This document shows, piece by piece, positions 14,190 through 30,754 of a stretch of DNA of 31,541 bases (positions are counted from its first letter, which is position 1; every line of letters starts with the position of its first letter). The position numbers were made by a program, and so were the translations under genes. This DNA is from Vibrio sp. 10N.286.49.B1. GTDB taxonomy: Bacteria > Pseudomonadota > Gammaproteobacteria > Enterobacterales > Vibrionaceae. Below the pieces are notes generated by a model, which did no database searches, was not told the origin of the DNA, and saw only the letters and a list, made by a program, of their open reading frames with translations. The stretch is taken from the NCBI RefSeq assembly GCF_002873335.1, contig NZ_MCUW01000016.1, positions 1 through 31,541 of the forward strand. The letters run 5' to 3'.

Positions 14190-14604
14190 GTCGGAAGGAT
14201 GCTGACACGGAACAGGAAACGCTCAGGGATTTGGGCATCTTCAGGAAGAAGATACGATTATTCAGGATGAATAGTCGGCATGGAAAGCGAATTGGACATT
14301 GAATGGACGCAATAGTAACTAGGATGGTTGCTACTAAGGAAAGACAATGGACACCTCAGGAAGAGGCAAGGACTTAACATCAGGATGATGTCAGGGACAC
14401 CGCTCAAGGAACAAGTGAAGCGAGCTAACGAGGATTGTTGGCAGGTCAGGATAAGACCAAGGACACCGCTAGGAAGGCGATGAAAGGAATACGCTGAAGG
14501 AACACAGCATACTATCAAGGATTAGATGCATGGAGCACCTATAGTAGCCGGATTGCTGCGAGTAAGACCATAACCCCAAGGGCGAAAGCTCTTGGGGTTT
14601 TTCT
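14190..14604 (+). ncRNA. csrB: CsrB-type regulatory RNA that sequesters CsrA
   Basis: About 415 nt with no protein-coding sense and more than 20 GGA motifs. Many sit in small hairpin loops where arms flank AGGA: CTTCAGGAAGAAG, TTCAGGATGAA, CCTCAGGAAGAGG, CATCAGGATGATG, GTCAGGATAAGAC. This is the mark of CsrB/RsmZ RNAs, which bind many CsrA dimers and relieve CsrA repression. It begins GTCGGAAGG and ends in a strong terminator (14572-14599), and a VarA/UvrY box lies at the expected distance upstream. Vibrio often has several such RNAs (CsrB, CsrC, CsrD), so which one this is cannot be told here. The opposite-strand open frame at 14258-14518 is an accident of the repeats. Confidence 0.92.
14572..14599 (+). 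terminator. Terminator of csrB
   Basis: AACCCCAAGGGC (14572-14583) / GCTCTTGGGGTT (14588-14599), a 12-bp stem with one G-U pair and a GAAA loop, followed by TTTCTTT. Confidence 0.92.
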
Positions 14605-14615
14605 TTATCTATTCT

Positions 14616-17120: not shown

Positions 17121-17150
17121 TTGAAAGATTTCAGGTCGCTCTCCTATCCT
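17121..17150 (+). promoter_or_regulatory. Candidate sigma-70 promoter of the bufferin operon
   Basis: TTGAAA (17121-17126), 18-bp spacer, TATCCT (17145-17150), about 70 bp before bufA. In other bacteria bufferin operons can be read by an ECF sigma factor, and no ECF gene is nearby here, so a housekeeping promoter or a distant regulator is possible. Confidence 0.35.
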
Positions 17151-17221
17151 ATTGATTAAGCAAGTCGGAAAACAACGATTTGTGGTCATAATTACAAGGA
17201 TCAAGTCTCGAGGAATTTACT

Positions 17222-17482
17222 ATGAAATCATCAAATCTAGCTATCACTGCCGCTGTAACTGGTTTAATCGCTCTGGGTGGCACCATGCTCACTGCAGCCC
17301 CTGCTGTAGCCGCTGAAAAAGAAAAATGTTACGGCGTTTCAAAAGCTGGAAAAAATGACTGTGCAACCAAAACGAGCTCATGTGCAGGGACAGCCAAAGA
17401 AGATAATCAAACCGATGCCTTCGTCGTCTTACCAAAAGGTCTGTGTGGAAAACTCGCAGGGGGCAGTACTGAATCTGCGTAA
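17222..17482 (+). CDS. bufA1: Bufferin-type RiPP precursor (BufA1 family, DUF2282)
   Basis: An 86-residue precursor peptide. Residues 1-30 are a Sec signal peptide (hydrophobic core about 7-28, cleavage likely after APAVA). The roughly 56-residue mature part carries four cysteines, C36, C47, C54 and C75, in the DUF2282 pattern EKCYGVSKAGKNDCA...SCAGTA...LPKGLCGK. Families of this kind are now known as bufferins: exported RiPPs whose cysteines are modified by a DUF692 multinuclear-iron oxidase and which bind copper. AGGA precedes the ATG. The modifying enzyme gene starts 178 bp downstream, after a terminator-like hairpin. Copper binding here is inferred from family and context. Confidence 0.88.
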   Translation: MKSSNLAITAAVTGLIALGGTMLTAAPAVAAEKEKCYGVSKAGKNDCATKTSSCAGTAKEDNQTDAFVVLPKGLCGKLAGGSTESA

Positions 17483-17588
17483 TCACGCCTTTGCTATCAG
17501 ATTTAGCGTTTTTGCTTAGTTGATTTGTATCGAACCCAACAGCATCGCAGTGTTAAAGGGATTCGACTGACAACATAAGCCATGACAC

Positions 17589-17612
17589 AAAGGGCGTAAT
17601 GATGCGCCCTTT
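17589..17612 (+). terminator. Hairpin between bufA1 and bufB, partial terminator candidate
   Basis: AAAGGGCG (17589-17596) / CGCCCTTT (17605-17612) with an 8-nt loop, followed by TCGTTTTC. Its place between precursor and enzyme genes would let most transcripts end after bufA1, with some reading through into bufB-bufC-doxX. Confidence 0.7.
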
Positions 17613-17660
17613 TCGTTTTCTACAAGTTATTCACATTGCACAAAGATCTAGGAGATCGAC

Positions 17661-18518
17661 ATGGATCGACGTTCCGCCTTTAACCTCGTTGGCATTGGGT
17701 TGCGACACCCTCATTTGGATTATTTCCAACAACACATCAATGCAGCGGGCTGGCTTGAGATCCATAGTGAAAACTATTTCATTGCGTCATCACCGGCTAG
17801 GCAGCAATTAAGATCGATTCGTGAACACACTGACATTAGTTGCCATGGTGTAGGGTTGTCATTAGGTTCAGTCAGTCACGTTGATCCGTCTCACTTAACG
17901 TCTCTTGTACATTTAGTTAATGAGATACAGCCTACAATGGTGTCCGATCACCTCAGCTGGAGTGAACATGGTGGTCACCATTTTAATGACCTATTGCCCC
18001 TCCCATATACGGAAGAAGCGCTTGAGGTATTTTGTCGCAACGTGTTGCAAGTACAAGATGCCCTGCAACGCCCATTGCTTATTGAAAACCCGTCCAGTTA
18101 TTTACGATTTGAACACTCAGTAATACCTGAGTGGGAATTTCTATCTGAAGTTCAAAAGCGTACCGAGTGCCGACTGCTGCTCGACCTAAATAATGTCCAT
18201 GTTTCATGCTTCAACCATCAATACGATGCGATGACTTATCTATCCGCCATCAACGCCAATACGGTTGATGAGATTCACTTGGCTGGCTTTACCAAAAAAC
18301 AATTTGAACAGGGCGAAATTTGGATCGACACTCACAGTGACCGCGTCAGTGATGAGGTTTGGCACCTTTACAAAAGCTGGCTCGAACAACATGGTTCTAT
18401 GGCAACATTAATCGAATGGGACTTAGACATACCAGAGCCAGAAATATTGCTTGAAGAAGCAGATAAGGCCGTATCATTGCTCCTCGAAACAACCCATAAT
18501 GCAAAAGAGAGTGCCTAG
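17661..18518 (+). CDS. bufB: DUF692 multinuclear non-heme iron oxidase (BufB, MNIO)
   Basis: A 285-residue TIM-barrel protein of the DUF692/MbnB family, which oxidises cysteine residues of a partner peptide. Likely metal-ligand and active-site segments: EIHSENYF (33-40), SCHGVGLSLGS (60-70), VSDHLSWSEHGG (94-105), IENPSSY (141-147), LLLDLNNVHVS (172-182), EIHLAGF (204-210), DTHSDRV (223-229) and IEWDLDIP (251-258). AGGAG precedes the ATG. bufC follows after 2 bp. With the DUF2282 precursor upstream, the expected job is to modify the BufA1 cysteines before export. The exact product cannot be read from sequence. Confidence 0.9.
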   Translation: MDRRSAFNLVGIGLRHPHLDYFQQHINAAGWLEIHSENYFIASSPARQQLRSIREHTDISCHGVGLSLGSVSHVDPSHLTSLVHLVNEIQPTMVSDHLSWSEHGGHHFNDLLPLPYTEEALEVFCRNVLQVQDALQRPLLIENPSSYLRFEHSVIPEWEFLSEVQKRTECRLLLDLNNVHVSCFNHQYDAMTYLSAINANTVDEIHLAGFTKKQFEQGEIWIDTHSDRVSDEVWHLYKSWLEQHGSMATLIEWDLDIPEPEILLEEADKAVSLLLETTHNAKESA

Positions 18519-18520
18519 TT

Positions 18521-19300
18521 ATGACGACTCTCTATGACACGCAACAAGCATTTTCCCGTGCTCTTCGCTACCAAGCCTCAGGAAACGAGTGTGGTATTGC
18601 TGCCGACTACTTTTCAGCAGATGAACGACTCCAGATCTATCGCAACAACTTTATCATTAGCCTGACAGAGGTACTGCAGGCTTGCTATCCACTTTCTCTC
18701 GCGTTGGTTGGTGAGGAATGCTTTGCCTCGATGGCAAAGTTTCATATCACTCGTCATCCTCCAACATCTGGCAGTACTCTCGATTATGGTGAAGGGTTTA
18801 ATGAATCCGTATCGTTACTGGACAACATCACAAGCGCCGTTCCTTACCTACTAGACGTCATCGAACTTGAGTGGGCAATAGACCAAGCCAATAGCCTAGA
18901 GCCGACCTCGGATATTGACGACGTAGAGCCTATCGTCCGATTGGCAAACATCCCAGAAATGCAGCATGGCAATATCCGTCTTCACATCAGCCAAGATATA
19001 CAGGTTATAACGTCCGACTACGCATTACTCGATTTGAAACATGCCATCGAACATGAGCAATATGAATCATTAACCATTGAACTTCCACAAACTATCTTGC
19101 TACAAGGCAATACCTCTAAGCCGACCCTTTTAAGCAAAATTGAACCATCACTTGGGGCATTAATTGCTCAACTGCAAGCGCTTCTTCCCCTCAAATCAAT
19201 ACAGCCAGAGCTACTTACTCTGCTTCCTACTCTGCTATCCATGAATGTCGTTTCTGGGTTTAGCCTCATTGATAGTAAAGACCATGACCTAAAGGAGTGA
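18521..19300 (+). CDS. bufC: BufC-type MNIO partner protein (DUF2063)
   Basis: A 259-residue soluble protein. The N-terminal part (about 7-95) fits the DUF2063 domain: QQAFSRALRYQ, RLQIYRNNFIISLTEVLQACYPLSLALVGEECFASMAKFHI and HPPTSGSTLDYGEGFNE. Databases call this a putative DNA-binding domain, but beside DUF692 genes it acts as the partner that brings precursor to enzyme, as with MbnC/HvfC/BufC types. The C-terminal half is more variable. The start lies 2 bp after bufB, so the two are coupled. The N-terminal match is strong; the remainder is assigned by operon context. Confidence 0.85.
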   Translation: MTTLYDTQQAFSRALRYQASGNECGIAADYFSADERLQIYRNNFIISLTEVLQACYPLSLALVGEECFASMAKFHITRHPPTSGSTLDYGEGFNESVSLLDNITSAVPYLLDVIELEWAIDQANSLEPTSDIDDVEPIVRLANIPEMQHGNIRLHISQDIQVITSDYALLDLKHAIEHEQYESLTIELPQTILLQGNTSKPTLLSKIEPSLGALIAQLQALLPLKSIQPELLTLLPTLLSMNVVSGFSLIDSKDHDLKE

Positions 19301-19304
19301 AACG

Positions 19305-19760
19305 ATGAACAATGGACTATCTAATTTCATGAACGCTTACGACTCAGCCGTCAACAATATACAAAAAGGCTTTGTTCCTTTGCTTCTTCTGTTTTGCCGA
19401 CTCTGGGTCGCATGGGTATTTTTTAATTCAGGCCTCACCAAGATAGCGTCTTGGGACAGTACACTATATCTATTTGAATACGAATATCAGGTTCCGGTTA
19501 TTCCATGGCAACTTGCTGCTTACATGGGCACCGTTGCCGAACTCGTATTACCGGTATTTTTAGCACTCGGGCTTCTCTGTCGACCAATGGCTGCCATCTT
19601 ATTTGTCTTTAATATTACTGCAGTGGTGTCGTACCCTGTTTTATGGGAAAAAGGATTTTACGACCATCAGCTATGGGGGCTAATGATACTGATCGTCGTG
19701 GTATGGGGAGCGGGGCCATTATCTATAGATAAATTAATACGCAACAAGATGAATTCATAA
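19305..19760 (+). CDS. DoxX-family membrane protein of the bufferin operon
   Basis: A 151-residue inner-membrane protein with about four hydrophobic segments. DoxX-type features are LLLFCRLWVAWVFFNSGLTKI (about 26-45), the YQVPVIPWQLAAYMGTVAELVLPVFLALGLLCR region and an aromatic-rich end. DoxX proteins have been tied to quinone or redox membrane chemistry, without a general assigned reaction. It starts 4 bp after bufC, and DoxX genes commonly close DUF2282-DUF692-DUF2063 operons. It is the last gene before a strong terminator. Confidence 0.88.
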   Translation: MNNGLSNFMNAYDSAVNNIQKGFVPLLLLFCRLWVAWVFFNSGLTKIASWDSTLYLFEYEYQVPVIPWQLAAYMGTVAELVLPVFLALGLLCRPMAAILFVFNITAVVSYPVLWEKGFYDHQLWGLMILIVVVWGAGPLSIDKLIRNKMNS

Positions 19761-19781: not shown

Positions 19782-19813
19782 AAAAAACCCCGTCATTAAT
19801 AACGGGGTTTTTT
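19782..19813. terminator. Bidirectional terminator after the bufferin operon
   Basis: AAAAAACCCCGT (19782-19793) / ACGGGGTTTTTT (19802-19813) with an 8-nt loop. T-tracts on both strands; it lies between converging doxX (+) and the small gene at 19829 (-). Confidence 0.92.
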
Positions 19814-19828
19814 AATTGAGTCGCAGGC

Positions 19829-20113
19829 TTATTTATTTGCTAAAAATGCCTGAAGTTCTTCAGCTGAAATACCTTGCTCTGCAAGTTCTTTCGCTAAAGA
19901 TTGAACCTGCTCGCCTTTGCGAGATTCAATCACACGTTGAAATTGGTAAACGATGTCTTTCAGAACATGGATTGGCACTTGTTTCGCTGCGCTTCGTATC
20001 CGCTCTTCACTTTGATTACCAAGCTCAGCAAGTAACTTACCAAACATAATTTTTTCTGGAGACTCTTCCATCTGCTCAAGAATGCGAGCCATTTCGTAAG
20101 TAGTCAAAGACAT
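19829..20113 (-). CDS. Small protein resembling the H-NS oligomerisation region
   Basis: A 94-residue soluble, helix-rich protein that I do not firmly recognise. Residues about 48-94 (a run with VLKDIVYQFQRVIESRKG and then AKELAEQGISAEELQAFLANK) resemble the N-terminal dimerisation and linker part of H-NS, where a charged coiled coil is followed by MxADGIDPEEL. The DNA-binding motif of H-NS (TWTGQGRxP) is absent and the protein stops there. If the likeness is real it could form mixed oligomers with H-NS, as truncated H-NS proteins do. The remote similarity is by eye only. It is monocistronic, with a weak ribosome-binding sequence, ending at the shared terminator. Confidence 0.7.
   Translation of the reverse strand: MSLTTYEMARILEQMEESPEKIMFGKLLAELGNQSEERIRSAAKQVPIHVLKDIVYQFQRVIESRKGEQVQSLAKELAEQGISAEELQAFLANK

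Positions 20114-28597: not shown

Positions 28598-30754
<2,157 letters not shown>

Follow-up and report, generated by a model that had tools for sequence, protein, structure and literature searches.

Bufferins are a large and little-studied class of copper-handling peptides. In the available parts of the published accounts, Buf1 precursors carry a signal peptide and four cysteines (PMC12452194), the central cysteines are modified to thiooxazoles, the outer pair is linked by a disulfide and the product is a periplasmic copper binder, with modification before export being the expectation of the authors (PMC12452194, PMC13097082). The Caulobacter vibrioides operon CC3254-CC3257 encodes DUF2282, DUF692, DUF2063 and DoxX proteins in this order (PMC3511200, in the part available), and we find the same arrangement, with a precursor that likewise has four cysteines and, by eye, a Sec-like signal peptide, in a 31,541-nucleotide stretch of DNA from Vibrio sp. 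10N.286.49.B1 (NZ_MCUW01000016.1), hereafter the window, which is one entire contig (C16) of a 5.15-Mb genome assembled as 89 contigs.

Other known systems resemble this operon in part. In Sinorhizobium meliloti, SMb20530-20527 likewise include DUF692 and DUF2063 genes and are induced by RpoE7, and the Legionella gold-induced GIG operon, also of a different lineage, is described, in the part of its account available, as metal-induced with RpoS suggested as its regulator. The oxazolin (hvf), gonophorin (ngo), fontiphorin (fon) and bulbicupramide (mmr) systems pair a multinuclear nonheme iron-dependent oxidative enzyme (MNIO) with a DUF2063 partner, convert cysteine to 5-thiooxazole and bind copper, according to the available parts of their descriptions, which leave the bulbicupramide product unsettled between a thiooxazole and an oxazolone-thioamide. 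The precursors of these four systems carry EGKCG repeats, in contrast to the Vibrio precursor BufA, which belongs to DUF2282 and has no such repeats.

The Vibrio operon and its proteins

An initial reading of the window (the original prediction) proposed a bufferin-type operon for a ribosomally synthesized and post-translationally modified peptide (RiPP), with a four-cysteine DUF2282 peptide followed by DUF692, DUF2063 and DoxX genes. Open reading frame (ORF) positions and Pfam matches bear this out, and we find four ORFs, bufA-bufB-bufC-doxX, on the + strand at 17222-19760, with coordinates and families as first described:

17222..17482, + strand: bufA, 86-aa Buf1/DUF2282 precursor (PF10048, E = 4.6e-22, 78.2 bits, cut-off 22.4)
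17661..18518, + strand: bufB, MNIO (DUF692) bufferin maturase, 285 aa (NF050167, 361.8 bits; PF05114)
18521..19300, + strand: bufC, DUF2063 MNIO partner (PME-type 1), 259 aa (PF09836, E = 1.2e-21)
19305..19760, + strand: doxX (bufD), membrane protein, 151 aa (PF07681, E = 3.2e-18)

All four proteins exceed the Pfam cut-offs of their families, ribosome-binding sites are discernible by eye ahead of bufA and bufB, and searches of this genome find a single MNIO and a single DUF2282 protein above cut-off. The core order precursor-MNIO-DUF2063-DoxX is present, as the published Buf1 definition requires, and the predicted operon type agrees in gene content, order and families with the Buf1 biosynthetic gene cluster as given in the available part of PMC12452194, which counts DoxX within the core operon. 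We consider it very probable that bufA-doxX is a Buf1-type bufferin (captophorin) operon that would buffer copper by the mechanism set out below, by analogy with its studied relatives.

Of 296 genomes sampled across the family, 251 carry MNIO genes, and we compared the operon across 66 loci, 60 of them from the same genus and picked by us, non-randomly, from about 150 listed, plus six named loci. All four proteins are detected together in 65 of the 66, which argues that the operon is not a chance assembly; the exception, L072, gives no DoxX match, and in L099 the BufB and BufC matches lie within one shared open frame. The operon adjoins uvrD in 62 of the 66 loci. Those without uvrD (L090, L095, L097 and L099) hold another Buf1 operon type, with matches to a DUF2282-type precursor, MNIO, DUF2063 and DoxX and with a divergent BufA. 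The operon is ordinary for Vibrio, widely conserved and not surprising to a specialist; being common, and usually at one chromosomal site with one conserved promoter, it makes Vibrio a convenient bufferin model, in which the sigma factor, the signal and the role of DoxX are each open to study in a fast-growing laboratory strain.

BufA has exactly four cysteines, C36, C47, C54 and C75, behind what by eye is a Sec-like signal peptide, as the original prediction had it, of about residues 1-31 with an AxA-type site before EKEKC. Exactly four cysteines are found in 67 of 67 BufA sequences, with the same spacing in 63 and one extra residue between the second and third cysteines in the remaining four. 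BufA is not of the Buf2 type, which has six or twelve cysteines, and scores 24.5 bits against NF050166 (BufA2; cut-off 60). Identity to the window has a median of 87% (62 loci, the four other-type operons being excluded from this and the following BufC and DoxX medians). Across 63 sequences (1953 pairs), nonsynonymous and synonymous differences per site (pN and pS) are 0.118 and 0.561 in the signal peptide, which shows purifying selection, and 0.052 and 0.723 in the mature part, where constraint is stronger. Selection on the signal peptide is expected if it doubles as recognition leader, a role for which Antoine et al. give a preliminary result (PMC12452194, available in part). As to variation in precursor complement, tandem bufA genes precede a single bufB in Photobacterium (L038:5426-6000 and L039:5404-5979) and in L019, L023, L024 and L033, and some loci of another genus encode six-cysteine, Buf2-like precursors.

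BufB passes the NCBIfam model NF050167 MNIO_BufB (361.8 bits, cut-off 310), matches PF05114 MbnB_TglH_ChrH, formerly DUF692, with E = 5.6e-101 (337.7 bits), is similar to the solved MNIOs 3bww, 8hci and 7dz9, and falls below the cut-off of the HvfB model (224.3 bits, cut-off 360). Residues H62, H97, E142-N143, D175, N178, H206, D223, H225 and E252, which we take to be the MNIO metal site, are unchanged in 22 sequences. Identity is 59-80% in 20 aligned uvrD-type loci and 43% in L090; the median of 68% is rough, as starts are mis-set for some loci (minimum identity 0). Among the six named loci, Vibrio qingdaonensis (80%) and V. methylphosphonaticus (79%) have the closest BufB. The statement that databases mostly call such genes hypothetical has in part been overtaken, since NCBIfam now holds the bufferin maturase model that BufB passes.

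BufC has the 259-residue length expected of a PME-type 1 partner and scores 23.2 bits against the HvfC model (cut-off 142). Its AlphaFold model has a predicted local distance difference test score of 90.8, with a helical N-terminal half and a mixed α/β C-terminal half. BufC diverges far faster than its substrate, with a median identity of 37% (62 loci) as compared to 87% for BufA. DoxX has a median identity of 74% (61 loci), scores 47.5 bits against the NF050144 HvfX family (cut-off 80), and finds no relative in a profile search against solved structures. In L060 doxX is split into two pieces (2233-2708), which, together with the absence of a DoxX match in L072, suggests that DoxX may be dispensable.

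A predicted conserved promoter and candidate sigma factors

Upstream of bufA lies a conserved element whose layout is that of an extracytoplasmic function (ECF) sigma factor promoter:

17122..17150, + strand: predicted ECF-like promoter, from conservation; TGAAAGATTT (17122-17131) and CTATCCT (17144-17150), with 16 nt from TGAAAG to CTATC

We find TGAAAG 5' of bufA in all 61 uvrD-linked Vibrio loci (window counted, two Photobacterium loci excluded), with a spacing of 16 nt in 60 and 17 nt in one. After 16 nt, CTATC is exact in 44, has one change in 15 and two changes in one; the 17-nt locus is exact. Sites were picked by TGAAAG, so that its invariance is partly by construction, yet none of the 61 loci lacks it. 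The motif is absent from the four other-type operons. A strict form of the pattern, scanned across the genus, gives 24 matches, distributed over 23 of 118 genomes; a bufA follows 23 of these matches, and a reversed-pattern control gives none. As this pattern matches about a fifth of genomes, an equally conserved second target should appear about as often, and none was seen in the scan. A looser pattern finds three places in the window's own genome, bufA and two others, neither of which, by eye, precedes an obvious gene for a sigma factor or for copper handling. Outside the genus we scanned 32 loci (30 from other genera plus the two from Photobacterium), the precursor being recognized in 18; the leaders reach at best 13 of 15 positions (L023, L033, L038 and L039) and otherwise 10 to 12, against a background of 9 to 12, and the predicted promoter is therefore a weaker match outside Vibrio, near background in most loci.

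The promoter of the Caulobacter Buf1 operon reads GTAACC-N16-CGAA as compared to TGAAAG-N16-CTATC in Vibrio, an agreement of layout only. A sigma F/DUF1109 pair (CC3253, CC3252) adjoins the Caulobacter operon, in contrast to the Vibrio window, which has no linked sigma gene (PMC3511200, in the part available), and rpoE7 (SMb20531) adjoins its Sinorhizobium targets, again unlike the Vibrio uvrD-type operon. The original prediction was right that the window holds no dedicated sigma factor, and incomplete in omitting the conserved ECF-like promoter. Of 14 Sigma70_r4_2 matches genome-wide none is on this contig, and sorting by eye leaves six ECF genes, all of which lack the motif in their upstream regions (at best 11 of 15 positions agree). 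A conserved ECF-like promoter and no sigma gene in the window make it likely that an unlinked sigma factor serves bufA.

An alternative reading of the same element is a sigma-70 promoter of poor fit, TTGAAA-N18-TATCCT, regulated by another factor or by none. We keep this as an unlikely but serious alternative, since the window motif scores 9 of 12 in a sigma-70-like consensus scan, and the lack of the motif upstream of the ECF genes is in its favor. That scan, however, returns 5 sites in the window against 6.9 expected by chance, and, of 55 distinct sites, 23 have the first T of TTGAAA, which is not a conserved base, unlike TGAAAG-TTT and CTATC, whose invariance we judge unusual for sigma-70. 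The shared layout of the Caulobacter Buf1 ECF promoter (PMC3511200, available in part) also favors the ECF assignment.

Among candidates for an ECF factor acting at bufA, a SigZ-like gene of L129 is rejected, having no close match in the promoter-bearing genomes G124, G165 and G179; a ChrR-type sigma factor is unlikely, with no match at 1e-30 in promoter-bearing G219; and the RpoE consensus, GAACTT, does not fit. The PRK12517/DUF3379 sigma factor is present in all 19 operon-bearing genomes and in 12 of the 18 without the operon, all chosen by us. Its upstream regions in 20 genomes hold no good motif match (best 12 of 15), and its assignment to bufA is compatible with these data but weak. Further candidates are the SigZ-like L128 and L132, the comparison across genomes having covered the L129, ChrR-type and PRK12517/DUF3379 factors. 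In L090 (4374-5555, - strand), which carries the other type of Vibrio Buf1 operon, an ECF sigma gene lies immediately 5' of bufA; L090 is the one locus among the four of the other type in which the flanking sigma gene was inspected.

Hairpins in the predicted transcript

Three hairpins accompany the operon:

17157..17183, + strand: predicted transcript start TAAGCAAG and 5'-end hairpin, stem 17160-17167 / 17176-17183, from fold and covariation
17589..17612, + strand: bufA-bufB hairpin with a 10-bp stem, then a T-rich run; candidate attenuator or bufA-only 3' end
19784..19811, + strand: terminator-like hairpin 3' of doxX, -13.7 kcal/mol, z -2.86, T run at its end

About 7 nt past CTATCCT, the transcript would start at TAAGCAAG (17157), a block that is itself conserved. 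In the window the 5'-end hairpin folds with -9.3 kcal/mol (z -3.78). Across leaders, GCAAG pairs with a CTTGC-like downstream arm at a variable distance, and a stem of at least 5 bp is present in 43 of 54 distinct leaders, compared to 5.4 expected from shuffling. The covariation score in a 14-sequence alignment is 0.367, above all slid versions and not reached in any of 500 shuffles; pairs changed on both sides, in the same 14 sequences, show no excess (92 of 500 shuffles as high). The variable loop length favors an RNA hairpin over a DNA operator.

In the window the hairpin between bufA and bufB folds with -15.2 kcal/mol (z -3.89), above chance, and in 44 of 54 distinct gaps, from relatives and window together, no more than 5 of 100 shuffles reach an equally good fold; the ten that fail are L053, L061, L062, L063, L065, L071, L072, L076, L078 and L084. 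This test covers gaps of at least 50 nt and excludes 11 loci with shorter measured gaps, some of which result from a bufB start set too far upstream. A consensus terminator scan of the window finds 2 sites as compared to 3.3 expected, not above chance, and does not pick up the hairpin after doxX. By eye, the T run is missing after the gap stem in many relatives, and the hairpin may therefore stabilize the bufA message instead of terminating it. This hairpin suggests a precursor in excess of the enzyme, and both hairpins together would raise the precursor far above it. The conserved sequence GCTCAA, tried as an RNA motif in the loop of the gap hairpin, was rejected, the hairpin itself being retained: it occurs 512 times in the loci, 28 times in strong stems, of which 15 were flagged in the gap, with two further cases (L056 and L074) seemingly in the gap and the others elsewhere, and the window hairpin lacks it.

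The literature examined on bufferins describes neither a promoter conserved across Vibrio with no sigma gene beside it nor such transcript hairpins. As a tentative joint reading, which we hold to be somewhat less probable than its failure in one part or another, an unlinked ECF factor, possibly PRK12517/DUF3379, would drive the bufA promoter alone and the two hairpins would provide a large precursor excess; in that same reading, and with the same reserve, this wiring would be the ancestral state of the Vibrio bufferin operon. The literature examined contains no such single-target, two-hairpin wiring for bufferins.

Proposed copper buffering, alternatives and neighboring features

We infer the chemistry, export and copper binding of BufA by analogy with studied relatives. 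Transcription would begin at the ECF-like promoter, with a sigma factor encoded elsewhere, and BufA would be overproduced by means of a stable 5' mRNA hairpin and of a part of the message ending at the hairpin before bufB. In the cytoplasm, a complex of the iron oxidase BufB with its DUF2063 partner BufC would grip BufA, probably via the signal peptide, and oxidize the central Cys47 and Cys54 to 5-thiooxazoles. Sec would then export the modified BufA, the Cys36-Cys75 disulfide would form, and the mature peptide would chelate excess periplasmic copper, with DoxX assisting in the inner membrane, perhaps in redox or hand-over. The exact modification, left open in the original prediction, is less open in its chemistry, as studied relatives bear 5-thiooxazoles (PMC13097082, in the part available).

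Several findings weigh against this assignment. The neighbors of the BufA cysteines are unlike those of EGKCG substrates, whose chemistry was re-examined most closely (available part of PMC13097082). The C-terminal RiPP recognition element domain that a PME-type 1 partner would carry beside DUF2063 is not confirmed in BufC, for which a profile search against solved structures gives a best E of 0.15, to an unrelated protein, and BufC evolves fast, as given above. Finally, Buf1-type operons answer other metals, chromate and cadmium in Caulobacter (PMC3511200) and gold in Legionella, in the parts of these accounts available, and the main signal in Vibrio may therefore be something other than copper.

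This last point leads to the alternative in which the same RiPP serves another stress in Vibrio, such as gold, cadmium, chromate or oxidants, and copper binding is incidental. Induction of the Caulobacter operon by dichromate and cadmium runs via sigma F (PMC3511200), the Legionella operon responds to gold as well as copper, and DoxX is elsewhere tied to oxidative or sulfur stress (PMC12452194), all as reported in the available parts of the sources. Copper chelation, on the other hand, is the measured property common to the studied products (PMC13097082, PMC12452194, in part), and no pointer to another metal was noticed in the window; we regard a different task as doubtful, though worth keeping in view. 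A decayed or unmodified operon with BufA as a plain thiol peptide is highly improbable, because the four frames in the window are intact, the BufB motifs are invariant and the proteins co-occur in all but one locus, and the fast divergence of BufC, possible from lost constraint, speaks for it little.

Beyond the copper-buffering operon, a small ORF (19829-20113, - strand) convergent with doxX gives a weak H-NS N-terminal match (31.2 bits, cut-off 24.5). A CsrB-family small RNA (RF00018, 98.1 bits) lies at 14297-14608 (+ strand) and is also found near uvrD in L034 and L036. At 30648-30748 (- strand), a thiamine pyrophosphate riboswitch (77.5 bits) overlaps the start of an ORF at 28598-30754 that is thiC-like by eye and is followed by further thiamine-like ORFs.

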